A stretch of 35,627 bases of DNA from a virus, in the IMG/VR virus record IMGVR_UViG_3300034418_006733, positions 1 to 35,627 of that record; one strand, given 5' to 3'. A model generated the notes under the pieces. The model made no database searches, was not told the origin of the DNA, and saw only the letters and a list, made by a program, of their open reading frames with translations. Made by a program: the position numbers and the translations under genes. This document shows, piece by piece, positions 13,743 through 32,687 of this stretch (position 1 is its first letter; each line of letters starts with the position of its first letter).

Positions 13743-14150
13743 ATGAAGAATAAAATTTTTGAGTTATATAAACCGAAGTCATTAGCAGAATTTTTAGAAT
13801 TCTATAAAGAGAATCCTGAAGAAAATTTTGTTTATGTATTACAGCATCCACCTGCAAATATAAATATTTTAGGTGCATCTGATTTTGGTTACCTGGTTAT
13901 TTGTTTACCTAACTATGGACCAGACTCACAAATTATTTTTTCATCTAGTCCTTTTGTTTTTAAAATGAAAAAAAATTTAAGGGACTTTAGACCTCAAGAT
14001 TATTTATTGTTAACAGGAGATCCTGCAGTTATTGGTATTTCTTGTGCAATTGTAAGCGACCAAACTAATGGTCAATTTAACCTCTTGAAATGGGATCGAC
14101 GAGAGGCTAAATACTATCCTATAAATTTCGATCTCTATCAGAAAGGATAA
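13743..14150 (+). CDS. Hypothetical protein, first gene of the replication block
   Basis: This 135-aa soluble protein follows the divergent promoter. There is no clear ribosome site, which is notable for a first gene. The sequence is aromatic-rich with an alpha/beta look ('VYVLQHPPANINILGASDFG', 'QDYLLLTGDPAVIGISCAIV'), and no nucleotide-binding or metal motif is recognised. It is probably an early phage protein of unknown function. Confidence 0.6.
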   Translation: MKNKIFELYKPKSLAEFLEFYKENPEENFVYVLQHPPANINILGASDFGYLVICLPNYGPDSQIIFSSSPFVFKMKKNLRDFRPQDYLLLTGDPAVIGISCAIVSDQTNGQFNLLKWDRREAKYYPINFDLYQKG

Positions 14151-14154
14151 TACT

Positions 14155-14718
14155 ATGAGTAACGAAGTAAGTAACATGATGTTGGAAGACTCTAAAGATC
14201 TTCTAGACAATGTTGAAATAACTACAATCGCAGCTGAATGTCAGAAATTAAAAAACATTGAAGATGAGATTCAGAAAACAGAAGAACTATTAAAAAATTT
14301 AAAAACAATGGCGGATGATATTGGTTCCAGGGTTATACCGGAACTACTTGCTGAACAAGGTTTGAGTTCAATCAAACTATCAGACGGTTCATCTGTTTCA
14401 GTTAAAAAAGAATTTAGGTGCACTCTTCCTAAAGATGATGTGAAGAGAGAAGCAGCCTATCAATGGCTTCGTGATCAGGGGTTAGGTGACATTATTAAAA
14501 ATAATGTGATTGTAACTTTTGGTCGTGGGGAAGATGACAAGGCACAACGTTTGTTGGACCTTGCGGCGTCTAATGGTTTTCAACCACAGCAGAAATCTGA
14601 TGCGGCTTGGAATACATTGACAGCCCTATTCCAGGAGCGTGTCGAGTCCGGGCTCGACATGCCTTCTGATATCTTTAATACGTGGATTAAAGATAAGACT
14701 AAAATAACCCGAAAATAA
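14155..14718 (+). CDS. Hypothetical early protein with N-terminal coiled coil
   Basis: This 187-aa protein has a good ribosome site (AAAGGA). Residues about 25-60 form a heptad-rich helix ('ECQKLKNIEDEIQKTEELLK'), followed by a mixed domain with 'LSDGSSVSVKKEFRCTLP' and a C-terminal helical part. It directly precedes the SSB-like gene and shares its 'MSNEV' start. A DNA-binding or replication-accessory role is possible from position, but no family is recognised. Confidence 0.6.
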   Translation: MSNEVSNMMLEDSKDLLDNVEITTIAAECQKLKNIEDEIQKTEELLKNLKTMADDIGSRVIPELLAEQGLSSIKLSDGSSVSVKKEFRCTLPKDDVKREAAYQWLRDQGLGDIIKNNVIVTFGRGEDDKAQRLLDLAASNGFQPQQKSDAAWNTLTALFQERVESGLDMPSDIFNTWIKDKTKITRK

Positions 14719-15568: not shown

Positions 15569-17092
15569 ATGAAAGATAAGTTTAAAGAAATATTTGAGGG
15601 GTTAAAAATAGCTTATGGTCAATATCAAAAAGGTGAGCGTGGTGAAAATGGTAAACAAGGTGGTAAGGCATTTATTGTTAGAGGTAATGTTACAGATGAT
15701 CTTTGGGAAAATCATCTCAAAGGTAAAGGACCTGCTCTTGGTATTATACCGATTACCGAAAATAATACTTGTAAGTGGGGTTGTATTGATATTGACGAAT
15801 ATAATTTTAATCATGCTTTACTTATATCTAACATACGTGAATTAAAACTTCCTTTAATTGTGTGTCGCTCTAAATCTGGGGGAGCACATGTATTTTTATT
15901 TACTAAAAAATTTATACCTGCTTCTTTAATGCAAGGAACATTAAAGAAAATGGCAAAGATATTAGGATATGAAGGATGTGAAATCTTTCCTAAACAAACA
16001 GAAATATTAGTGGAACGTGGTGACACTGGTAATTTCTTAAACTTACCTTACCACAATGAAATGAAAGGGTTACGATATGCTATCAACGATAATGGTACCG
16101 GTTGTACACTTGAGGAATTTTATAAGCTCTATGATGTTTATGCTTGCGAAACAGAAGACCTCAAAGAAATTAAAATTGAAGAAAAGAAAATCGAAGAAGC
16201 GTTCAAAGATGGACCTCCTTGCTTAAATAAATTAGCTTCCACAGGGTTTGGAGAAGGATCTAGAAATAATGCATTATTTAATATTGCAGTTTATTTTAAG
16301 CAATCTAATCCAGATACCTGGGAAGATGAAATTGTAAAAGCAAACATAGAATATATGACTCCTTCATTAAGTAATAATGAAGTTCAACAATTGATTAAAT
16401 CAGTTAATAGAAAAGGTTATGATAAATATAGATGTAAAGATGCTCCTATTAATTCAGTATGTCAATCAAGTCTATGTAGATTAAAAAAATATGGAGTTGG
16501 TTTTGGGGAAGAAGAAATGCCAATACTAGGTAACCTAACAAAGTATGCATCTAAACCACCACAATGGTTTTTAGATGTAGGGGAAAATAGAATTGAATTA
16601 AAGACAGAGCAATTATATATGCCAGGATTATTTGCACTAGCATGTTTAGACCAGGCTAATTTAGTTATTCCTATTCCTAAACCAAAAGATTGGAAACAAC
16701 ATTTTTTAAAACCAATGATGAATAATTTACAAGAGATTGAACCATTAGAATCTTTAGATCCAATTAATGAGATAACTTCTTTATTACAAGATTGGACTAC
16801 GAATAGACAATCAGCAAGAACTATGGATGATATTTTAAATAAACTTCCCTACACAGATGAGAATAGAGAATTTACTTATTTCAGAAGAGAAGACTTTTAT
16901 AGTTTTTGTAAAAAGAATAATTGGGAACATGATAAAATTAAAACAGGAAATTATCTTACTCAATTAGATTGTTTTGTGGAAGAGTTTAGACCTAACATAA
17001 AAAATCAACAACCAAGAGTTATTAAAATTAAAACAATGAAGAAGATAGATGCTTCTGTTTCTAAAATAAAATATCAGCAAGATGACTTCTAG
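15569..17092 (+). CDS. Archaeo-eukaryotic type primase (TOTE-like AEP domain)
   Basis: This 507-aa protein has the AEP primase signature: the metal-binding D74-x-D76 in 'GCIDIDEYN' and 'SKSGGAHVFLF' (residues 101-111, His107), then 'EIFPKQTE'. This order is typical of the AEP domain of TOTE elements and related phage primases. It is followed by a PriCT-like helical region ('GEGSRNNALFNIAVYFKQ', near residue 230) and a Cys-containing loop 'SVCQSSLCRLKKYG'. It would prime phage DNA synthesis for the family A polymerase encoded downstream. The C-terminal ~190 residues are not recognised. Confidence 0.8.
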   Translation: MKDKFKEIFEGLKIAYGQYQKGERGENGKQGGKAFIVRGNVTDDLWENHLKGKGPALGIIPITENNTCKWGCIDIDEYNFNHALLISNIRELKLPLIVCRSKSGGAHVFLFTKKFIPASLMQGTLKKMAKILGYEGCEIFPKQTEILVERGDTGNFLNLPYHNEMKGLRYAINDNGTGCTLEEFYKLYDVYACETEDLKEIKIEEKKIEEAFKDGPPCLNKLASTGFGEGSRNNALFNIAVYFKQSNPDTWEDEIVKANIEYMTPSLSNNEVQQLIKSVNRKGYDKYRCKDAPINSVCQSSLCRLKKYGVGFGEEEMPILGNLTKYASKPPQWFLDVGENRIELKTEQLYMPGLFALACLDQANLVIPIPKPKDWKQHFLKPMMNNLQEIEPLESLDPINEITSLLQDWTTNRQSARTMDDILNKLPYTDENREFTYFRREDFYSFCKKNNWEHDKIKTGNYLTQLDCFVEEFRPNIKNQQPRVIKIKTMKKIDASVSKIKYQQDDF

Positions 17093-17297
17093 TATAGGAA
17101 TTAATTGGCGTTTAAAATTAACTCAAAAAATTGATTGCTTGTCTAAACAAGTAGATAAATTAAGTGCAAGAAATAAATTTTTAGAAAATAAATTAAGAAA
17201 ATATAGAAATGAAAACAATAATACTAGGACCACCGGGAACGGGAAAAACAACGACACTATTAAATTTAGTGGACGAATTTATTCAACAAGGAATTAG
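17082..17297 (+). CDS. Small coiled-coil protein overlapping primase and helicase genes (candidate)
   Basis: The frame begins 11 bp inside the primase end, fills the 116-bp gap, and overlaps the helicase start by 89 bp in another frame. The first ~45 residues form a clear heptad helix ('LTQKIDCLSKQVDKLSARNK'), while the overlapping tail is Asn/Thr-rich and looks like a by-product of the helicase codons. The N-terminal part is likely to be translated. Confidence 0.45.
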   Translation: MTSSIGINWRLKLTQKIDCLSKQVDKLSARNKFLENKLRKYRNENNNTRTTGNGKNNDTIKFSGRIYSTRN

Positions 17298-18717
17298 GCC
17301 TAAACAAATAGGTTATTTTTCTTTTACGAAGAAGGCTGCAAGAGAAGCAGCTAATCGTGCGTCTGAAAAATTTGGATTAGATGTAGAAACAGATTTAGCT
17401 AACTTTAGAACATTGCATTCATATGCATTTAGAATGTTGGGTATGAGTAGAGAAAAAATGATGAAGACAGAAGATTATAAAGAGTTTGGTCAAAAATGTG
17501 GCATACCTATTAAGACTGCAAACTTTTCAGGAGAGGACGGAACCTTTAATTCAGATAATGAATATCTTACTATTATCAATACAGCGGCTGTTAAGAGAAT
17601 GGATCTATTAGATTATTATGATTCTAGAAAAAACTTATTAGATATAGAGCGGAATACTTTATTCTTACTTTCAGAGGAACTCAAGAGATTTAAAAAAGAA
17701 AAAGAACTTAAAGATTTCAATGACTTATTGGAAGATTTTATTGCAAAAGAAATTAGTCCAAGCTTTGAAGTATTGTTTATTGATGAAGCACAAGATCTAT
17801 CTTTAATACAATGGGAAATGGTTAGATCCCTTTGGAGTAATTCTAAAAAAACTTATATCGCAGGGGATGATGACCAGGCTATTTTTAAATGGGCCGGTGC
17901 AGATGTAGATCACTTCATTGCATTAAAAGAAGAGGTGGATGATATTAAAACATTAGAACAATCTTATCGTATTCCAGGCGGACCTATTCATGAACTATCA
18001 CAAAAAATAATAAGCAAAGTACAAAATAGATTTGATAAACAATATAAGCCGAGACATGAAGTAGGAATTTTAAAAAGATATTCTGATATTACTCAAGTAG
18101 ATATGAGTCAGGGAAATTGGTTAGTATTATCTTCAGCAAATTATTTTTTAGATGATGTAAAAGAATTATGTGAGTTAAGAGGTTGGTATTATCAATACAA
18201 AGGACAAAACTCTATTAGTTTAAAATTATTATTAGCATTAAATAATTGGGAAGCATGGAGAAAAGGTTGTTATTTAAACAATTTAGAAATAAAAAATATC
18301 TATGAATACCTGGGTGCAAACGTATTAGAAGGTTTTAGAAAAGGAAAAACATTACATGCTGAAACTAAATATACATTAAAAGAATGTATAGAGCAGTATG
18401 GTTTGTTAACAGATAAGGTTTGGTATGAATCATTTGAGGGTTTAGATACTCTCACAGAAAACTACATTCGTAATATGAGGGCGAATGGAGAGATGATAAA
18501 TAAAAATCCTCGTATCATAATGTCAACTATACATGGAGCTAAAGGAGGAGAAGCGGATAAAGTTTTATTGTTACAAGATTTAACTAACGCAGCACTTGAA
18601 ACATTTGCACACGATCCAGACGAATTACATCGTTTGTTTTATACGGGTGCAACAAGAGCGAAGCGTGAATTACATATTGTGGACCCAAAAAACTTTGACC
18701 GTGCTTATTTAATATGA
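17209..18717 (+). CDS. UvrD/PcrA-like superfamily 1 helicase
   Basis: The 502-aa protein shows all SF1 motifs: Walker A 'GPPGTGKT' (7-14), Ia-like 'FSFTKKAAREAANRA', II 'FIDEAQDLS' (DEAQ 192-195), III 'IAGDDDQAIFKWAGA', IV 'LEQSYRIPGG', V 'STIHGAKGGEADKVLLL' and VI 'FYTGATRAKRELHIV'. Such enzymes unwind DNA 3'-5' or 5'-3' in an ATP-dependent way. It is shorter than host UvrD (about 700 aa), as usual for phage Dda/UvrD-like helicases. It is likely the main unwinding enzyme here, as no DnaB/gp4 helicase is found. Confidence 0.88.
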   Translation: MKTIILGPPGTGKTTTLLNLVDEFIQQGIRPKQIGYFSFTKKAAREAANRASEKFGLDVETDLANFRTLHSYAFRMLGMSREKMMKTEDYKEFGQKCGIPIKTANFSGEDGTFNSDNEYLTIINTAAVKRMDLLDYYDSRKNLLDIERNTLFLLSEELKRFKKEKELKDFNDLLEDFIAKEISPSFEVLFIDEAQDLSLIQWEMVRSLWSNSKKTYIAGDDDQAIFKWAGADVDHFIALKEEVDDIKTLEQSYRIPGGPIHELSQKIISKVQNRFDKQYKPRHEVGILKRYSDITQVDMSQGNWLVLSSANYFLDDVKELCELRGWYYQYKGQNSISLKLLLALNNWEAWRKGCYLNNLEIKNIYEYLGANVLEGFRKGKTLHAETKYTLKECIEQYGLLTDKVWYESFEGLDTLTENYIRNMRANGEMINKNPRIIMSTIHGAKGGEADKVLLLQDLTNAALETFAHDPDELHRLFYTGATRAKRELHIVDPKNFDRAYLI

Positions 18718-18959
18718 CCAATAAATCAATGTTTGATAAAATAATAAATGCATCTGAACGTCAAGAGGGAGGAACTCATTATAATAAATATAGTATTCAA
18801 CCCTATGCATTTACAAGAAGCAATAACTTGTCTTTTTTTCAAGGCAATGTTATTAAGTATGTGGTTCGTTATAAAGATAAAAACGGTATTGAAGATTTGA
18901 AAAAAATTATTCATTACTGTGAATTAGAAATTGAAGAAATGAAAAAGGAAGAGAAATGA
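18714..18959 (+). CDS. DUF3310 family protein
   Basis: This 81-aa protein matches the DUF3310 pattern common in phages of many hosts: 'GGTHYNKYSIQPYAF' followed by 'LSFFQGNVIKYVVRYKDKNG' and 'EDLKKIIHYCELE'. The family is proposed to bind nucleotides and often lies in nucleotide-metabolism or replication blocks. It is coupled on both sides (ATGA overlaps) to the helicase and the polymerase. The biochemical role is unknown. Confidence 0.85.
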   Translation: MTNKSMFDKIINASERQEGGTHYNKYSIQPYAFTRSNNLSFFQGNVIKYVVRYKDKNGIEDLKKIIHYCELEIEEMKKEEK

Positions 18960-20818
18960 GAAGTACCCAAATACCCTTATTCAGTCCGGATACGGAATGG
19001 GTAATGCCTGATGAACTACGCGATTTGCGCGGTCATAAAGAAATAGCAATTGATTTAGAAACCAATGACCCGGAGTTAATAACTCTCGGATCGGGGAACG
19101 TGGTTGGACGTGGTCATGTTGCAGGTATCGCTATTGCTGTAGAAGGTTGGTCTGGTTACTATCCTATTCAACATGAACTTGGAGGAAATTTAGATAAGAA
19201 ATTAGTTTTATCATGGCTCCAAGATATGTTTAATCAAGAAGATACTACCTTTATTTTTCATAATGCAATGTATGATGTGTGTTGGCTACGGTCTATGGGC
19301 CTAACAATCAAAGGTAAAATTGTAGATACCATGATTGCAGCATCTTTGATTGATGAAAATAGAATGTCCTATCGTTTAGATACATTAGCAAAATTTTATG
19401 TTGGTTTAGGTAAGGATGAAAAAATATTACAAGAAGCAGCAAAAGATTATGGCCTGGACGCAAAAAAAGATATGTGGAGATTGCCTGCTCTTTTTGTTGG
19501 ACAGTACGCGGAACGTGATGCGGAAGCTACGTTAAAACTTTGGCAACGATTAGATACAGAACTTCACAACCAAGAATTAATGGATATATTTAATTTAGAA
19601 ACAAAATTATTTCCATGTTTAGTAGACATGAGATTCAAAGGTGTAAGAGTTGATTTAGAAAAAGCTGAAAATATTAAAAATAATTTAATGCAACGTGAAG
19701 CTAAAATAGTCAATAAAATCAAAGAGTTAACTGGTATTGAAGTAGAAATACATGCGGCAAGATCTATTGCAAAAGCATTTGATAAATTACAATTACCATA
19801 CGACAGAACAGAAAAAACAAGTGAACCAAGTTTTACAAAAAACTTTTTACAAAATCATCCACATGAATTACCAAAATTAATTGCAGATGCCAGAGAGATT
19901 AATAAAGCGCATACAACTTTTATAGATTCTATTACCAAACATGCAGTCAATGGAAGAATACATGCAGACATAAATCAAATTAGATCTGATCAAGGAGGAA
20001 CTGTTACAGGTAGATTTTCTATGAGTAATCCAAACCTACAACAAATTCCTGCAAGGCATCCAGAATTGGGTCCAATGATACGATCTATATTTATTCCAGA
20101 GGAAAAATGTAAATGGGGTTCCTTTGACTACTCACAACAAGAACCAAGAATTTTAGTACACTATGCCAAGTTACAAAATTTAGAGGGAGTGGATGAAATT
20201 GTAGATGCATATAATTCAGGGGACGCAGACTTTCACCAGGTAGTTGCTGATATGGCAGGTATTGAACGTAAACAAGCTAAAACAATTAATTTAGGTCTAA
20301 TGTATGGAATGGGTAAAAATAAATTAATGTCTGAATTAGGATTGATGAAAGAATCTGCAGAAAAATTAATTAAACAATATCATATGAAAGCACCTTTTGT
20401 TAAAAAGCTTATGGATAATGTAACCAGGAAAGCAGAGAACTACGGTAAGATTAGAACGTTAGGCGGAAGAGCCTGTCATTTTGATTTATGGCAACCTACT
20501 CAATTTGGTGTGTTTAAACCTTTACCATTAGAGCAAGCAAGAAAAGAATATGATGAGCCTTTAAAAAGGGCCTTTACTTACAAAGCTTTAAACAAATTAA
20601 TCCAAGGATCTGCTGCCGACATGACTAAAAAATCTATGGTAGCTTTATATGAAAATGGAATTATTCCTCATATTCAAATACACGATGAGGTGGACATTTC
20701 TGTATCATCTGATAAACAGTCAGAACAGATTATAGAAATTATGGAATCTGCTGTGACTTTAAAAGTACCCAATAAAGTAGATTATGAAAAAGGAGATAAT
20801 TGGGGAGACATTAAATAA
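18956..20818 (+). CDS. polA: Family A DNA polymerase with 3'-5' exonuclease
   Basis: The 620-aa enzyme has an N-terminal DEDD exonuclease ('AIDLET', D33 and E35; 'FHNAMYDVCWL'; 'YAERDAEATLKL') and a complete polymerase domain: motif A 'GSFDYSQQEPR' (D391), motif B 'RKQAKTINLGLMYG' (R438, K442, Y450) and motif C 'HDEVD' (H576-D577-E578). It lacks a 5' nuclease domain. Residue L446 takes the position of E. coli Pol I Phe762 (Tyr526 in T7). It is the replicative polymerase of this phage, coupled to DUF3310 and the SF1 helicase. Confidence 0.95.
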   Translation: MRSTQIPLFSPDTEWVMPDELRDLRGHKEIAIDLETNDPELITLGSGNVVGRGHVAGIAIAVEGWSGYYPIQHELGGNLDKKLVLSWLQDMFNQEDTTFIFHNAMYDVCWLRSMGLTIKGKIVDTMIAASLIDENRMSYRLDTLAKFYVGLGKDEKILQEAAKDYGLDAKKDMWRLPALFVGQYAERDAEATLKLWQRLDTELHNQELMDIFNLETKLFPCLVDMRFKGVRVDLEKAENIKNNLMQREAKIVNKIKELTGIEVEIHAARSIAKAFDKLQLPYDRTEKTSEPSFTKNFLQNHPHELPKLIADAREINKAHTTFIDSITKHAVNGRIHADINQIRSDQGGTVTGRFSMSNPNLQQIPARHPELGPMIRSIFIPEEKCKWGSFDYSQQEPRILVHYAKLQNLEGVDEIVDAYNSGDADFHQVVADMAGIERKQAKTINLGLMYGMGKNKLMSELGLMKESAEKLIKQYHMKAPFVKKLMDNVTRKAENYGKIRTLGGRACHFDLWQPTQFGVFKPLPLEQARKEYDEPLKRAFTYKALNKLIQGSAADMTKKSMVALYENGIIPHIQIHDEVDISVSSDKQSEQIIEIMESAVTLKVPNKVDYEKGDNWGDIK

Positions 20819-21456
20819 TGTCTTATCTCAATGCAAATATCCCACCTATCTACTGCAATGTAAGGAAGGAATATCTTTATGACTTTAAACAACATCATGG
20901 TGAAAGTGAAGAGTGTGTTATTTTTGGTTTGGCAAGCATTACAGGGCGTGCCTTATTATTTCACATCCTACTCCCGAACGGTGCGGTCTACTATCGATTG
21001 CCTATCAGCGCGTTTTTCCAAAAACGTTTTTCTAGATCCGAAGTGCCCGATATGTCAATTGACTCGTTACAATTGTGGAATTGTTTTAGTTATTATCCTG
21101 CTATTACTACTTTTGATTTTTTAGGGGGACAACGTGGAAAATTCTTGGACAAAAGTAAAAAGTTTCTTGAAGCTGAATATTGCTTTACTGTTGATTGGGC
21201 ATCGCCTGAAAGTAATATCTTGGATACAGATCATAGCGAAGTACCTCAAGAGCACAAGTGTGCACATGTTTTGGCTCTTTATAACGGTAATTATGCAGCT
21301 ATGCCTAACAATCGTATTTTGTGGAACATTCCTCATTATACTACTTCTAGTACCATTCCAGATTATAAAGTCCAAACTACAGTCTGGAACGTAGAAAACA
21401 AAGGTTGGATAACAGAGGATAGTGATGTTATGTTCTATGATATTAATGAAACGTAA
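20818..21456 (+). CDS. Conserved hypothetical phage protein
   Basis: This 212-aa protein has a start overlapping the polymerase stop (TAATG). It is rich in Tyr, Trp and Cys, with stretches such as 'VIFGLASITGRALLFHILLP' and 'RILWNIPHYTTSSTIPDYKV'. It looks like a globular mixed alpha/beta protein without membrane spans. Its fixed place after the polymerase suggests a replication or takeover role, but no family is recognised. Confidence 0.65.
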   Translation: MSYLNANIPPIYCNVRKEYLYDFKQHHGESEECVIFGLASITGRALLFHILLPNGAVYYRLPISAFFQKRFSRSEVPDMSIDSLQLWNCFSYYPAITTFDFLGGQRGKFLDKSKKFLEAEYCFTVDWASPESNILDTDHSEVPQEHKCAHVLALYNGNYAAMPNNRILWNIPHYTTSSTIPDYKVQTTVWNVENKGWITEDSDVMFYDINET

Positions 21457-22567: not shown

Positions 22568-23087
22568 TATTCCTATTAGTGATGAGTTAAGAGATTACGC
22601 CTGGAAACAAGTATCTATTAAAAATTTTGGTAACCGTCGTAGTGGGTTCAATGGTAGTAAAGAAAAACAATACACCGGCATTCTGGGTGAATGTATTTTG
22701 TACCAGGTTATTTATAATCGTTTACCGACCTATGATAGCGGATCGGTGATCGCGGATATAGTTGTTAATGATAAAACCATAGATATTAAAACCATGGCAA
22801 GAAATGTAGATATGAAAGATTTTTATGTTCACAATTTTGTTGGTTATCAAAAAGATAGTAAGAATGATATTTTACTTTTTATTAGTATTAATAAAAAAAC
22901 AAAAGTAGCACAGATTTGTGGGTGGTTACCTAAAGAAACTTTTTTACAACAAGCAAATTTTTTTGATAAAGGTAGTGTACGAACTAGATCGGACGGCACT
23001 AGCTTTACTACTATGGCCCCGTTGTATGAAATAGAAAATAATAAATTACATAAAATTACTTCTGTAGAAGATTTACGAAAACTATAA
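22560..23087 (+). CDS. PD-(D/E)XK nuclease-like protein
   Basis: This 175-aa protein has an arrangement expected of the restriction-endonuclease fold: E44 in 'GILGECILYQVI', D66 in 'VIADIVV' and D75-x-K77 in 'KTIDIKTMA'. A later strand, 'VAQICGWLP', completes the core. A role in recombination, junction cleavage or host DNA breakdown would suit its place in the replication block. The specific substrate is unknown. Confidence 0.6.
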   Translation: MINIPISDELRDYAWKQVSIKNFGNRRSGFNGSKEKQYTGILGECILYQVIYNRLPTYDSGSVIADIVVNDKTIDIKTMARNVDMKDFYVHNFVGYQKDSKNDILLFISINKKTKVAQICGWLPKETFLQQANFFDKGSVRTRSDGTSFTTMAPLYEIENNKLHKITSVEDLRKL

Positions 23088-23713
23088 TGAACTCATTGAA
23101 AAAAAAAGAATACAACAAACGATACTGGGAAAAGAATAAAGAACGATTAAAAATAAAAAACAGAGAACGAGGCAAAAGATATCGTGCAGATCCTAAAAAT
23201 AAAGAAAAAATAAGAGAAAGTAATAGAAAATATGCAATAAAAAACAGAAAAAAAATACTTGCATATCACGCAAAATATAGAAAAAAAAATAAAGAAAAAA
23301 TTAATCAAGGAGGTAAAGAATGGTATTATAAAAATAAAGAAAAAGTTAGAGCAAGACAAAGAATTTATGAACGAATAAGAAGAAACACTTTACATTTTAA
23401 AATAAAAGATAATATGCGTAAAAGAATTAAAACTGCATTAAAAAAAGATAATGGAAAAAAAACAAAAAGAACTATGAAATTAGTAGGTTGCACCGTTGAA
23501 CAATTAAAACAACATATAGAAAAACAATTTAAACCAGGAATGAGTTGGGAACAAAGGGATTCGTTTCATATTGATCACATCATACCTTGCGCCAGTTTTG
23601 ATCTAACTAAATTATCGGAACAAAAAAAATGTTTTCATTACACTAATTTACAACCCCTCTATCCCATAGAGAATATAAAAAAAGGAGCGAAGTTAAACTA
23701 TGAAATGGAATAA
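23087..23713 (+). CDS. HNH endonuclease, copy 1
   Basis: This 208-aa protein has a long Lys/Arg-rich helical N-terminal region built of repeated 'Y/W-x-K-N-K-E' units, then the HNH core: 'KLVGCTVEQLKQHIEKQF', 'GMSW', 'HIDHIIPCASFD' (H161, D163, H164), 'CFHYTNLQPL' (N187) and 'ENIKKG'. Enzymes of this type nick or cut DNA and often behave as free-standing homing endonucleases in phages. It lies immediately before the RecB-like exonuclease and is paralogous to 24394-24954. Confidence 0.85.
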   Translation: MNSLKKKEYNKRYWEKNKERLKIKNRERGKRYRADPKNKEKIRESNRKYAIKNRKKILAYHAKYRKKNKEKINQGGKEWYYKNKEKVRARQRIYERIRRNTLHFKIKDNMRKRIKTALKKDNGKKTKRTMKLVGCTVEQLKQHIEKQFKPGMSWEQRDSFHIDHIIPCASFDLTKLSEQKKCFHYTNLQPLYPIENIKKGAKLNYEME

Positions 23714-24404
23714 AAAATTTATCTACCCTAAATCACAACGAGAAATTATCAATGGAAAGCGACACTATGATATTAAAGCACAAAAATTACCGTCGGTTAC
23801 TACGATACTATCTGCAACGCAATCTGAAGCGAAGCAAGCTTCATTAGCAGCGTGGCGTGCCAGAGTAGGAGAGGATCAAGCAACGCGGATCGTGGATGAT
23901 GCTGCGACCAGGGGGACAGCGATGCATAAAATTCTGGAAGAATATATTCAGGGCCAAGGTTATTTGGATTTAACTCCGACCGGACTGAATGCACACAACA
24001 TGGCTATTCAAGTAATTCAAAATGGATTGTCCAATGTCACCGAGTATTATGGCCTCGAAGCAACGTTATATTATCCAGGACTATACGCAGGTGCTACCGA
24101 TATGGTGGGAGTGCATAAAGGACAGGACGCTATTATTGATTTTAAACAAACCAATAAACCAAAAAAGAGAGAATGGATTGAAGATTATTGTTTGCAATTA
24201 GCAGGGTATGCCATGGCGCATAATTTTATTTATAAAACTTCTATCACCAAAGGTGTGATTATGATGTGTAGTAAAGATAATTATTATCAAGAGTTTGTGA
24301 TAGAGGGAGCCGAGTTACAAAAATATAAACATGAATTTTTACGAAAGGTAGCTCAATATTATAAAATGCAAGATGAAGGGGCTCTTGACAATAATGCCGT
24401 ATAA
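23700..24404 (+). CDS. RecB/MGME1-like PD-(D/E)XK exonuclease
   Basis: The 234-aa protein shows the full RecB-type nuclease signature: H76 in 'RGTAMHKILEEY', E120 in 'YYGLEATLY', D134 in 'YAGATDMVG', D147-x-K149 in 'AIIDFKQTNKP', and Q166xxxY170 in 'YCLQLAGYAMAH'. Such enzymes degrade DNA ends and fill the place of T7 gp6-type exonucleases in recombination and host DNA recycling. It is coupled to, and bracketed by, two HNH endonucleases. Confidence 0.85.
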   Translation: MKWNKKFIYPKSQREIINGKRHYDIKAQKLPSVTTILSATQSEAKQASLAAWRARVGEDQATRIVDDAATRGTAMHKILEEYIQGQGYLDLTPTGLNAHNMAIQVIQNGLSNVTEYYGLEATLYYPGLYAGATDMVGVHKGQDAIIDFKQTNKPKKREWIEDYCLQLAGYAMAHNFIYKTSITKGVIMMCSKDNYYQEFVIEGAELQKYKHEFLRKVAQYYKMQDEGALDNNAV

Positions 24405-24954
24405 AAACTCTATTAAACAAAAAGAAAATGTAAGAAAAAATTATTTAAAAAGAAAAAAAGAAAATTACCAATTATGGTTAGAAAAATCACGTATTTATTG
24501 TAAAAAATATTATTTAAAAAATAAAGAAAAAGAAAATAAAAGAGTTAAGTTATATAGATTAAAAAATAAAGAAAAAATTAAAATTACAATGAATAAATAT
24601 TACAGAAATAGAAGAAAAAAGGATATGGCTTGGAGACTTTTGGTAAATGTTAGAACAAGAATAAATCATGCTTTAAAAGGAACGGTTAAAAAATCTAATA
24701 AAACAAAAAAATTAATAGGTATTTCAGTAGAAGGATTAGTTAAATATATTGAAAGTAAATTTTTACCAGGTATGAGTTGGAAAAAACGTCATTTAATTCA
24801 TATTGATCATATTAGACCATGTGCTAGTTTTGATTTAACGGACCCAAAACAACAAGCCATATGTTTTCATTACACTAATCTACAACCATTGTGGGCTATA
24901 GATAACTTAAAGAAAGGAGCAAAACATGAAACAACTAATGCACGAGTTGAGTAA
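24394..24954 (+). CDS. HNH endonuclease, copy 2
   Basis: The 186-aa protein starts at ATG 24394, giving an 11-bp overlap with the exonuclease; an upstream start at 24373 lies deeper inside that gene. The architecture is the same as copy 1: a basic N-terminal repeat region, 'KKLIGISVEGLVKYIE', 'GMSW', 'HIDHIRPCASFD' (H136, D138, H139), 'CFHYTNLQPLWAIDNLKKG'. It is diverged from copy 1 but clearly the same family, suggesting duplication or two independent homing events around one nuclease gene. Confidence 0.85.
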   Translation: MPYKNSIKQKENVRKNYLKRKKENYQLWLEKSRIYCKKYYLKNKEKENKRVKLYRLKNKEKIKITMNKYYRNRRKKDMAWRLLVNVRTRINHALKGTVKKSNKTKKLIGISVEGLVKYIESKFLPGMSWKKRHLIHIDHIRPCASFDLTDPKQQAICFHYTNLQPLWAIDNLKKGAKHETTNARVE

Positions 24955-25311: not shown

Positions 25312-25348
25312 AAGGGGTCTTTATTGAGGTAAAGACCCCTTAATTTTT
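25312..25348 (+). terminator. Rho-independent terminator of the replication block
   Basis: A perfect 12-bp stem, AAGGGGTCTTTA (25312-25323) with TAAAGACCCCTT (25330-25341), closes a 6-nt loop and is followed by AATTTTT (25342-25348). It sits between the last plus-strand gene and a convergent small minus-strand gene. Confidence 0.85.
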
Positions 25349-25354
25349 GATGAA

Positions 25355-25489
25355 TTACTCGTCGTCTTCGTCTTCTACCTCATCGTCCCAATCTTCTTGC
25401 TCCTCACAAGCTTTATCTCTGATTGTTTCGATGTCTTGTTCGATTCTATCTAGGATATCCTCGATCGTTTCTTCCTTTTTTCTTGGCAT
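25355..25489 (-). CDS. 44-aa acidic protein
   Basis: On the minus strand, AGGAGC lies 6 bp before the ATG. The peptide starts 'MPRKKEETIEDILDRIEQDI', continues as a charged helix, and ends in a run of Asp/Glu with one Trp. A basic head with an extremely acidic tail suggests a DNA-mimic or protein-binding peptide. It is alone on this strand between the terminator and the repeat island. Confidence 0.6.
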   Translation of the reverse strand: MPRKKEETIEDILDRIEQDIETIRDKACEEQEDWDDEVEDEDDE

Positions 25490-25572
25490 TATAGTGCTCC
25501 TATGTTGTTGTTGAGGGGTCAAACGATACGCGTTCCGCGGTCGGGTGACAAGTAAAATGTTATGCTGAAAAT

Positions 25573-25593
25573 GGAGCGGGGAGCGCGGAGCGT
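25573..25593. repeat. Three tandem 7-bp repeats GGAGCGN
   Basis: GGAGCGG, GGAGCGC and GGAGCGT follow one another without spacing. They are GC-rich in an AT-rich setting and not within a supported gene. Confidence 0.7.
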
Positions 25594-25617
25594 TGATTTC
25601 ATTATCTTTTATTTATT

Positions 25618-25639
25618 ATAGTAAACATTTGTTTACTAT
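25618..25639. promoter_or_regulatory. 22-bp dyad, probable protein-binding site
   Basis: ATAGTAAACA (25618-25627) is the exact inverse of TGTTTACTAT (25630-25639) with a TT centre. Length, spacing and lack of a T-tract suit an operator or initiator site bound by a dimer, rather than a terminator. Confidence 0.6.
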
Positions 25640-25673
25640 CGTTGCCAGGTATAAGTGGAAGTTAGGGGTCATG

Positions 25674-25699
25674 TTTTTTTTTTAAAAAAAATTTTTTTT
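25674..25699. other. T10-A8-T8 tract
   Basis: 26 bases contain only T and A in three homopolymer runs. Such tracts bend DNA and melt easily; here the tract lies between the dyad and the TGGCA repeats. Confidence 0.6.
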
Positions 25700-25740
25700 A
25701 GGCTGGCAGAGTGGCAAATGTCTTAAAAATCGATTATAAG

Positions 25741-25816
25741 TGTTGGTATTAAACAAAAAAAGCTTGCCAGAGCAGTCATTTTGCAGTGGCAAGGTCTGGC
25801 AAATCTGTTGGTATTA
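25741..25816. repeat. Direct repeat TGTTGGTATTA with inverted CTTGCCA/TGGCAAG between
   Basis: The exact 11-mer occurs at 25741-25751 and 25806-25816. Between them CTTGCCA (25763-25769) and TGGCAAG (25787-25793) form an inverted pair with a 17-bp spacer. More TGGCA copies lie on either side. Confidence 0.6.
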
Positions 25817-25968
25817 TTAGCTTTTTTGATTTTTCGTGTTGGCAAGAAATCAATATGTTAAAAAAGTCAATCAAATAGCCATTTCTCCGTACTCTGCGCG
25901 CGCGACCTTTTTTGTTTTTTAAAAAACTTTATAGGGGTCAAAATCCTCCTTATGTGTTAGAAACTGAA

Positions 25969-26259
25969 ATGCCTGGCAAAAATAAAAAATCTAAATATCA
26001 ATCTTTATTGATAAGCAAGAAAAGATATTACTTCTATAAAATAACTTGGCTTGATATTGTTGGTGATTCTGGACATGCAAACTCTGAAGAGTTTATGAAA
26101 TTGAATCCTGCAGTCATGGTTAGTTATGGTTATATCTTTAGCAAAGATAAAACTTGTATTAGAAGTTTTGCAAGTTATGATAGTAAGGAAGAAGCATTTA
26201 GTGATAGGAATGTATATCCAACTGGATGTGTTATTAAGTTAGAAAAAATAAATATATGA
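25969..26259 (+). CDS. Hypothetical phage protein
   Basis: The frame is open from a TTG at 25912 but ATG 25969 is the safer start (96 aa); neither has a good ribosome site. The core 'ITWLDIVGDSGHANSEEFMK' and 'AVMVSYGYIFSKDKTCIRSF' followed by 'DRNVYPTGCVIKLEKI' is beta-rich and resembles a small protein family I recall from marine phages. Not assigned to a function. Confidence 0.65.
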   Translation: MPGKNKKSKYQSLLISKKRYYFYKITWLDIVGDSGHANSEEFMKLNPAVMVSYGYIFSKDKTCIRSFASYDSKEEAFSDRNVYPTGCVIKLEKINI

Positions 26260-26396: not shown

Positions 26397-26527
26397 TAAA
26401 GTTTTTAGGAAAAATTAAAAGCAACGTTCACTTTTTATGGACTAAAATAAATAATCCATTTAATCAGACTCAAGGTCTTTCTTTATTTGTAATTGTGATT
26501 CTGTTGTTGATTCTTCTGTATAGATAG
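26393..26527 (+). CDS. 44-aa single-span membrane peptide overlapping terS (candidate)
   Basis: The ATG overlaps the preceding TGA (ATGATAA context). A basic N-terminal half is followed by 'LSLFVIVILLLILLYR', a clear membrane span. Its last 68 bp are antisense to the 3' end of the terminase small subunit gene. Coupling and the span argue for a real gene; the hydrophobic stretch could also be a by-product of the antisense Gln/Asp/Glu codons. Confidence 0.4.
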   Translation: MIKFLGKIKSNVHFLWTKINNPFNQTQGLSLFVIVILLLILLYR

Positions 26528-27011
26528 GTTCTTCTTCAGCAGTAATATTAATTATATTTTTGTGATCTTCTAAAATTTGTTTCATTTTAGATTGTAATTC
26601 TTCTTCACTTAATTGATCTAAATTACCTGTCATTACTAATTTTTGATCAACATATAATCCTCCGGCCTTTCCCCTTGCTATCTCTGCATTAATCGCAGCA
26701 CTCCAGGCCCCTTTTTTCTGCGCCTCATCTCTTAACTTCGCTAGTTCACCTAAATGTTTTTGAAAAGTAATTCCGTATTTTTCTTGAACCTCTGCTCGTA
26801 ACTCATTTATATATCTTACAACTAATGGTGAGTATTTAGGACTACGGAGCTCGCTCGCAGCCTGTCTTGGTCTTGTTTTGTATCCTGCTTCAAATGCGCA
26901 TTCCGCAGGCGACATTCTGCCCTCGTTGTAAACTAACAACTCTGCGAATTTGATTTGTTTTTCTGTAAGTTTTGCGGGTACTCCCATAATAATTTGACTT
27001 TTATCGTACAT
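26460..27011 (-). CDS. terS: Terminase small subunit
   Basis: This 183-aa protein (ATG 27011; a TTG at 27026 and an ATG at 26987 are alternatives) has the Terminase_2-type DNA-binding domain: 'LTEKQIKFAELLVYNEG', 'SPAECAFEAGYKTRPRQAAS' and 'LRSPKYSPLVVRYINELRAE'. A helical oligomerisation region and an acidic C-terminus follow. It would recognise the packaging site and load the large subunit. Unusually it lies about 6 kb from the large subunit and on the other strand, as the last gene of a minus-strand operon. Confidence 0.8.
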   Translation of the reverse strand: MYDKSQIIMGVPAKLTEKQIKFAELLVYNEGRMSPAECAFEAGYKTRPRQAASELRSPKYSPLVVRYINELRAEVQEKYGITFQKHLGELAKLRDEAQKKGAWSAAINAEIARGKAGGLYVDQKLVMTGNLDQLSEEELQSKMKQILEDHKNIINITAEEEPIYTEESTTESQLQIKKDLESD

Positions 27012-30239: not shown

Positions 30240-30242
30240 CCC

Positions 30243-30263
30243 CGAACCGCGCGCCCCGGTTCG
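30243..30263 (+). terminator. Hairpin after the VRR-NUC gene
   Basis: CGAACCG (30243-30249) pairs with CGGTTCG (30257-30263) around a GC-rich 7-nt loop, 3 bp after the stop. No T-tract follows, so termination efficiency is uncertain. Confidence 0.5.
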
Positions 30264-30283
30264 CGGGCTGTCAACTGTCCAAA

Positions 30284-30312
30284 ATGACGCGCGACAATTT
30301 GTCGCAGGTCAT
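30284..30312. repeat. Interrupted dyad next to GC-rich repeat 1
   Basis: GCGACAA (30291-30297) and TTGTCGC (30299-30305) are exact inverses around one T, with an outer ATGAC (30284-30288) and GTCAT (30308-30312) pair separated by two mismatches. Together they form a 29-bp interrupted palindrome, likely a protein-binding site. Confidence 0.55.
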
Positions 30313-30313
30313 C

Positions 30314-30343
30314 GGCTCGTGGCCCTCGGGCCCACCCACCCGG
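30314..30343. repeat. GC-rich intergenic repeat, copy 1 (G-quadruplex motif on minus strand)
   Basis: Form: GGCTCGTG, spacer, GGGCCCACCCACCCGG. On the minus strand positions 30341-30323 read GGG-T-GGG-T-GGG-CCCGA-GGG, which satisfies the usual four-run quadruplex pattern. Three related copies follow at 30372, 32344 and 32420. Confidence 0.7.
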
Positions 30344-30371
30344 CTAAAAAAAAAATAAAGCTTGCTCGCGA

Positions 30372-30403
30372 GCTCGTGCCCTCTGGGCTCCCACCCCTCC
30401 CCC
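30372..30403. repeat. GC-rich intergenic repeat, copy 2
   Basis: Form: GCTCGTG, spacer, GGGCTCCCACCCCTCCCC. It is diverged from copy 1 at the 3' end but keeps four C-runs (G-runs on the minus strand), with one loop of eight bases. Confidence 0.65.
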
Positions 30404-30438
30404 TGCCTCGATTTTTTGAAATTTTTAAAAATAATAAA

Positions 30439-30465
30439 CCCCGCTCCGCGATTTGCGAAGCGGGG
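30439..30465 (-). terminator. Rho-independent terminator of the 30.5-32.2 kb operon
   Basis: A 7+3-bp stem (30439-30445 and 30447-30449 with 30455-30457 and 30459-30465), broken by one C-A mismatch and closing a 5-nt loop, is followed on the minus strand by TTTATTATTTTT. It lies 12 bp after the last gene of the minus block. Confidence 0.85.
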
Positions 30466-30476
30466 TATTTGCGTAT

Positions 30477-32228: not shown

Positions 32229-32328
32229 TTTTCTTTCTTTTGTTTAAGCTTACAGTATCATTGTCCCTATTAGCATCAAGCATTATTATTAGAAAATCCC
32301 ATAAGTAGTTGAATACATTAGATTAAAG

Positions 32329-32337
32329 TTATCCACA
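32329..32337 (+). promoter_or_regulatory. Perfect DnaA-box 9-mer
   Basis: TTATCCACA equals the consensus bacterial DnaA box. A single copy can occur by chance in a 35-kb AT-rich sequence, but it lies in a dyad-rich intergenic region. Confidence 0.4.
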
Positions 32338-32343
32338 ATCCAC

Positions 32344-32372
32344 GGCTCGGTGACCGCGGTGCCCACCCACCC
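32344..32372. repeat. GC-rich intergenic repeat, copy 3
   Basis: Form: GGCTCGGTG, spacer, GTGCCCACCCACCC. Same orientation as copies 1 and 2, 7 bp after the DnaA-box match. Confidence 0.65.
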
Positions 32373-32377
32373 AGGTC

Positions 32378-32413
32378 GTTGCACTGTGGCAACAGTGTTG
32401 TAAATTTACAACA
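32378..32413. repeat. Alternative hairpins and 18-bp palindrome
   Basis: GTTGC/GCAAC (32378-32382, 32389-32393) and CACTGT/ACAGTG (32382-32387, 32392-32397) use the same bases and exclude each other. TGTTGTAAATTTACAACA (32396-32413) is a perfect 18-bp palindrome. The cluster lies exactly between GC-rich copies 3 and 4. Confidence 0.65.
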
Positions 32414-32419
32414 GTATGA

Positions 32420-32446
32420 GCTCGTGAACTATGGGCCCACCCACCC
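32420..32446. repeat. GC-rich intergenic repeat, copy 4
   Basis: Form: GCTCGTG, spacer, GGGCCCACCCACCC. The 14-bp second half is identical to copy 1 about 2.1 kb away. Confidence 0.7.
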
Positions 32447-32687
32447 GTAAACAAACAACGTAGGGTACCTTAACCAAAGGTCAATCTAGAAAATCGAAAC
32501 ACCCCCACCCCCTTTTTCGGGCCCGCAGACAATAGACTTACCCTTATATCTAGGTTTTAGACATATACTTGCTAAAAAAACTAAATGGCATTACAATTAT
32601 AAAATCAGAAAAATTTTATAGGGGGTACCCCTAAAAAAATAAAAACTCTGCAAAACAGAATGCCAAAAAAATTCTGCAAAAAATTTT

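Follow-up and report, generated by a model that had tools for sequence, protein, structure and literature searches.

The 479-bp noncoding island described here is probably the iteron-type replication origin of a pelagiphage relative, judging by comparison with related phages. It carries several short direct repeats beyond what chance would give, and their position, layout and pattern of word change are shared by relatives. Similarity among islands appears to follow the UvrD-like helicase and the C-terminal winged helix of the primase rather than TerS.

Setting and limits of the island

The window, which is the whole stretch of DNA that we analyzed, is a 35.6-kb virus record of 35,627 nt, listed as linear by IMG/VR. 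It encodes a polymerase with 86% identity to its counterpart in phage 023Pt_psg01 and 53 to 55% identity to those of the Pelagibacter phages HTVC027P and HTVC023P. The window is therefore a relative of the HTVC023P-type pelagiphages, which infect bacteria of the SAR11 type, and is a fragment of such an HTVC023P/HTVC027P-type relative. Phages of the HTVC023P type have been described as abundant and widespread in ocean waters (PMC9599517). The replication block is upstream of the island, and a minus-strand gene block headed by terS lies to its right (Table 1); the primase and helicase genes end about 7 to 9 kb upstream of the island.

The first-pass annotation had given this interval as 25490 to 25911 (420 bp). 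The island is real, and its left edge is the start of a 44-amino-acid (aa) minus-strand acidic ORF (25489), but the right edge had to be moved. Homologues of the 96-aa gene place its start at ATG 25969 and rule out TTG 25912 as the start, so the island runs from about 25490 to 25968. We found no ORF longer than 40 aa with a credible start inside it, in agreement with the earlier statement that it holds no credible gene. The public record of 023Pt_psg01 (MW574966) truncates the 96-aa gene, giving it as 14008 to 14166 rather than 13876 to 14166.

Other parts of the window yielded separate observations. Two HNH-type endonuclease genes (23087 to 23713 and 24373 to 24954) are paralogues, about 52% identical over part of their length, with one exonuclease gene between them. 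A second noncoding island (32229 to 32687), just upstream of terL, has several hairpin-like repeats and a perfect DnaA box (TTATCCACA) at 32329, of which about 0.45 would be expected by chance per window (hand estimate). The noncoding GC-rich stretches 30240 to 30476 and 32340 to 32450 have GGGCCCACCCACCC-type segments in common. No tRNA was found in the window, and an attachment-site reading was rejected.

Table 1. Features of the island and of the neighboring genes in the window
Feature	Coordinates	Strand	Remarks
AEP-TOTE/PriCT primase	15569-17092	+	predicted C-terminal winged helix, residues about 393-496; candidate origin-binding protein
UvrD/PcrA-type helicase	17209-18717	+	among tested proteins, its divergence best predicts island similarity
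PolA	18956-20818		replication block
Exonuclease	23700-24404		replication block
44-aa acidic ORF, left border	25355-25489	-	AGGAG upstream; inside a 55-aa frame; tblastn matches in close relatives
Promoter-like TTGTCA-17-TATCGT (25551-25523), towards acidic ORF	25523-25551	-	conserved in six close relatives
Perfect dyad ATAGTAAACA-TT-TGTTTACTAT, operator-like	25618-25639	.	conserved with changes in close relatives
Inverted iteron copy TTGCCA	25642-25647	-
A/T tract T10A8T8	25674-25699	.	most relatives have an A/T tract here
Iteron cluster 1, two direct copies, 8-bp pitch, TGGCAGAGTGGCAAA	25704-25718	+	counterpart in relatives
TGTTGGTATTA box, copy 1	25741-25751	+	exact repeat; TTGGTAT/ATACCAA in 13 of 23 islands
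Iteron cluster 2, one inverted TTGCCA and two direct copies (TGGCAAGGTC TGGCAAA), 10-bp pitch	25764-25803	.
TGTTGGTATTA box, copy 2	25806-25816	+	exact repeat
Single iteron copy TTGGCAAG	25839-25846	+
GC box and T-run GCGCGCGCGACCTTTTTT	25896-25913	+	most conserved 18 bp of the element
96-aa protein of unknown function, right border	25969-26259	+	weak phrog_25889 match
terS	26460-26984	-	first gene of the minus-strand block right of the island

Sequence features of the island

Several features reported in the first-pass annotation were found as described. The T10A8T8 tract is exact and the only one of its kind in the window, the GCGCGCGCG run is exact (25896 to 25904) and holds the sole GCGCGCG of the window, the dyad is a perfect 10+2+10 arrangement (ATAGTAAACATTTGTTTACTAT), and the terminator to the left of the island is present at 25312 to 25341. 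The iteron-like repeats comprise seven copies of TGGCA/TGCCA in about 200 bp (25643 to 25844), compared with 50 in the whole window, together with the 11-mer TGTTGGTATTA, which occurs twice. A Poisson scan gave a P value of about 5e-8 for the 5-mer cluster; this cluster ranks ninth among 512 k-mer classes, and therefore the local repeats by themselves are only suggestive. It is their conservation in relatives that makes the cluster convincing and indicates that the island is not a chance assembly.

The proposal that T10A8T8 is a melting tract was not supported. In the nearest-neighbor profile the tract, a stiff A-tract, is not unusually unstable, and the window has much less stable sequences. 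GC skew likewise lends no support to an origin, since it changes with gene strand alone, both in the window and in two complete genomes, those of 023Pt_psg01 and HTVC027P. No DnaA box is present in the island, the one in the window being that at 32329. DnaA boxes occur in many iteron-type origins, though not in all, and are not strictly defining.

Conservation in related phages

We compared the architecture of the islands of 23 genomes, and both the position and the layout of the intergenic region were conserved, as the first-pass annotation had proposed to check. In the common order, a segment of the TATAGT or dyad type comes first and is followed by an A/T tract, a pair of iterons, a TGTTGGTAT-type box (TTGGTAT/ATACCAA, in 13 of the 23), a second iteron cluster, a GC box (GCGCGCGCGACC) with its T-run, and a small gene. 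The second cluster usually has a single inverted copy and two or three direct ones, spaced at a pitch of 8 to 10 bp, as in GTGTGCCAAGGGTGTTGGCACAGCCTGGCACAG (L182), TTGTACCAAACACCCTTGGTACAATTAGGTACAATTGGTACAATT (L322), TTGTAACAAAACGCTGTTACAATGGTGTTACAGCTGTTACAAT (L311) and TTTGGTAGTAAAACGTCTACTACCTTGCTACTACC (L319). The lake phage DSL-LC04 has the same layout at the matching intergenic position and carries GTGCGCGCGCGATACTTTTTT in that gap.

Within a genome, both clusters use one iteron word, and that word differs between lineages (TGGCA, TGGCACA, TGTTACAAT, TGGTACAATT or TACTACC). The two halves of an island share 6.2 8-mers within a genome, versus 1.5 between genomes and a shuffle maximum of 1.6. 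A word that is shared within each genome and drifts between lineages is what would be expected of binding sites co-evolving with one initiator. In phage 023Pt (59.8 kb), 7 of the 13 copies of TGGCACA fall in the roughly 216 bp of the island. With the fixed split of the islands used here, HTVC027P has no 7-mers common to both halves, which counts against the origin reading.

The full GC box is absent from L312, L314, L319 and HTVC023P and is therefore not essential to every member. We searched viral contigs for the 16-mer GCGCGCGACCTTTTTT; among the matches listed, it adjoins terS in most of the contigs fetched, and the contigs carrying it form at least three groups, namely, pelagiphage-like contigs, group B (e.g., L142 and L179) and group C (L129 and L156). 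The same 16-mer gave only scattered matches in 257 Gb of cellular genomes, about the chance level for a 16-mer. An automatic detector requiring a GC box, a T-run and three identical 6-mers gave a single hit in the window, at the island; it missed relatives with degenerate units and scored a few places elsewhere. L008 and L010, both close relatives, lack the middle part with the iterons upstream of the 96-aa gene and have a short GGTGG array (GGTGGTGGTGG) there instead.

Proteins that vary with the island

We used Mantel tests on 22 related genomes to relate island similarity to protein identity. The correlation was highest for the UvrD-like helicase (rho of 0.67), followed by PolA and the primase (0.49 each), the SSB-like protein (0.44) and TerS (0.25), although such tests are lenient on related genomes, overstate significance and can be misled by proteins that evolve at different rates. 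The helicase correlation stayed significant with PolA, the primase, the SSB-like protein or TerS held constant, whereas the TerS correlation was lost given PolA or the primase. Beyond the helicase, no other protein added clearly by the alignment-based measure; by the shared-7-mer measure, PolA kept a borderline 0.22 (P = 0.048). The helicase model is a compact UvrD-type fold, and when the protein was scanned in sliding windows, no single region followed the island.

Within the primase, the C-terminal part (residues 414 to 493) tracks the island better than the catalytic domain does (0.58 versus 0.44), with a partial correlation of 0.43 given the catalytic domain (P = 0.001). The predicted primase combines an AEP domain closest to CRISPR-associated PrimPol (Z of 20) with a PriCT region and, at its C terminus, a winged helix. 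The winged-helix model matches the oriT-binding protein TcpK (Z of 8.0, 90 to 94 residues, root mean square deviation of 3.2 to 3.6) and the winged helices of origin-recognition complexes (Z of about 6), values that indicate a common fold and not a function. Together, the correlations point to a partner protein and are no proof of one.

Alternative readings of the island

The first-pass annotation had offered a regulatory hub as an alternative, and this may apply to part of the island. Its 5' quarter resembles a promoter region that would serve the minus-strand gene, and the dyad is operator-like. The first 130 bp, with the promoter and the dyad, are probably a separate transcription-control part. 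Extended to the whole island, such a reading would make the repeats operators of a phage regulator that switches the middle plus-strand genes and the minus-strand block to the right, with the GC box and T-run as promoter or leader of the 96-aa gene. The conserved minus-strand promoter-like site with the dyad and the location of the island at a change of gene direction both fit this, as does the arrangement in distant phages. Salmonella phage PMBT28, Acinetobacter phage Barton and Pseudanabaena phage Pan1, whose helicases belong to the same family at about 30% identity, carry repeats (TGGAACG, GGGGTAACA and TGCAGGGT) in two islands that flank the replication module. In PMBT28, the islands at 20677 to 21128 and 43541 to 44009 hold 14 of the 23 genome copies of TGGAACG; enrichment in Barton is weak, with 7 copies of GGTAACA found versus 7.4 expected in the genome, six of the seven being in the two islands. 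Repeats in islands around the replication module of these phages extend the pattern and speak for an origin. Two islands would also suit operators, however, which counts against the origin reading, and for this reason we keep control of transcription by the whole island as an unlikely but live alternative. Against it, the element is kept while the downstream gene differs (the 96-aa gene in pelagiphages and an unrelated small gene in groups B and C and in DSL-LC04), the next gene lies at a variable distance from the element, the helicase is a better predictor of island similarity than neighboring genes are, and we found no regulator gene that tracks the island.

We judged a cos or pac packaging site recognized by the small terminase to be very improbable. 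The element lies within 1 kb of terS in nearly all relatives, though the orientation of terS flips between groups, and the GC box resembles lambda cosN (GGGCGGCGACCT); in lambda cos as in the island, a GC-rich ...GCGACCT is followed by A/T-rich DNA near terS. Here, however, the element and TerS dissociate in both directions. L106, L148 and L161 have one TerS type and L130, L140 and L162 another, only 35 to 36% identical, whereas the elements of the two sets are 96 to 100% identical over up to 230 bp (100% over the 230-bp element for L106/L161 versus L130/L162). Conversely, L312/L314 and L319/L326 have TerS proteins that are 68 to 73% identical and islands that are unrelated (z near 0). The element thus does not covary with its cognate TerS, and the GC box is no gathering point of contig ends (1 within 40 to 110 bp of the gene versus 12 in the next 490 bp); on these two grounds, we rejected the packaging reading. 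In addition, 81 related genomes from viromes or sorted cells were circularized by terminal overlaps of 100 bp or more (PMC9599517), which fits poorly with unique cohesive ends. In the near-identical pelagiphages L106, L130, L140, L148, L161 and L162, terS has been exchanged beside an unchanged element, a natural recombination hot spot.

The island is also noncoding and conserved and has inverted repeats, as would a structured or small RNA, yet no Rfam match rose above threshold. What is conserved in it is a set of direct repeats, and from genome to genome all copies change their word together, unlike base-pair covariation. An RNA product is the least credible of these readings and is extremely unlikely.

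Comparison with known origins

We therefore return to the iteron-type origin. The part of the earlier proposal that found support is the iteron origin, by comparison of position, layout, word pattern and the tracking by the helicase and the primase winged helix; the melting tract found none. Initiator genes often adjoin their origin, and the roughly 9 kb between the primase gene and the island counts against the origin reading.

The closest organization is that of the origins of phage-inducible chromosomal islands (PICIs), and the island most likely works like such an origin, by analogy. In the origins of SaPIs and of Gram-negative PICIs, an AT-rich stretch separates two sets of short iterons, the sequence of which varies by element (PMC6092414). 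The island is alike in its two iteron sets flanking an AT-rich region (clusters 1 and 2 in the window and two clusters in most relatives) and in an iteron word specific to the element, and in both cases the replication module pairs a primase with an initiator or helicase. The PICI origin differs in lying directly 3' of its initiator gene, and because the island is not so placed, we do not claim membership in that class. The island further has an extra GC box with a T-run and a TGTTGGTAT-type box, its helicase is of the UvrD/PcrA type, and it belongs to autonomous phages, whereas PICIs are satellites.

Two other systems share the proposed combination of iterons and a primase. Satellite phage P4 has short iterons in both orientations at ori1 and crr, bound by a primase-bearing initiator (the alpha primase-helicase), much as we propose for the island; P4, however, uses two separate sites far apart and a fused primase-helicase, while we found only one iteron island in the window. 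The oriV of RSF1010 (IncQ) works with the RepB' primase, RepC and RepA, and RepB' is a structural match of the window primase. The likeness lies in iterons and a dedicated AEP-type primase that would act at the origin; the difference is that we recognized no RepC-like iteron binder or hexameric RepA-type helicase near the site.

Proposed mechanism and significance

We propose that the TGGCA iterons of both clusters are recognized by a protein of the phage. The most likely candidate is the AEP primase, which would bind them with its C-terminal winged helix, possibly joined by the UvrD-like helicase. The bound complex would open the AT-rich DNA between or beside the clusters, primers would be laid, with the GC box and T-run as a possible start site, and the UvrD-like helicase and PolA would extend from the primed site, in a direction that we can only infer. 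Literature searches returned no described pelagiphage origin and no iteron phages with this helicase. It is conceivable, though doubtful, that pelagiphages and their lake relatives have a new class of phage origin, in which an AEP primase reads co-evolving iterons through its C-terminal winged helix, the helicase is of the UvrD rather than the DnaB type, and replication starts at a conserved GC box with a T-run.

A defined element and a named candidate initiator make the origin question in HTVC023P-type phages testable, and the element is a natural coordinate zero for their genomes. That TerS and the element dissociate also shows independent exchange of the packaging gene immediately next to the element. 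The many natural variants of one iteron system are study material for the co-evolution of an initiator and its sites.
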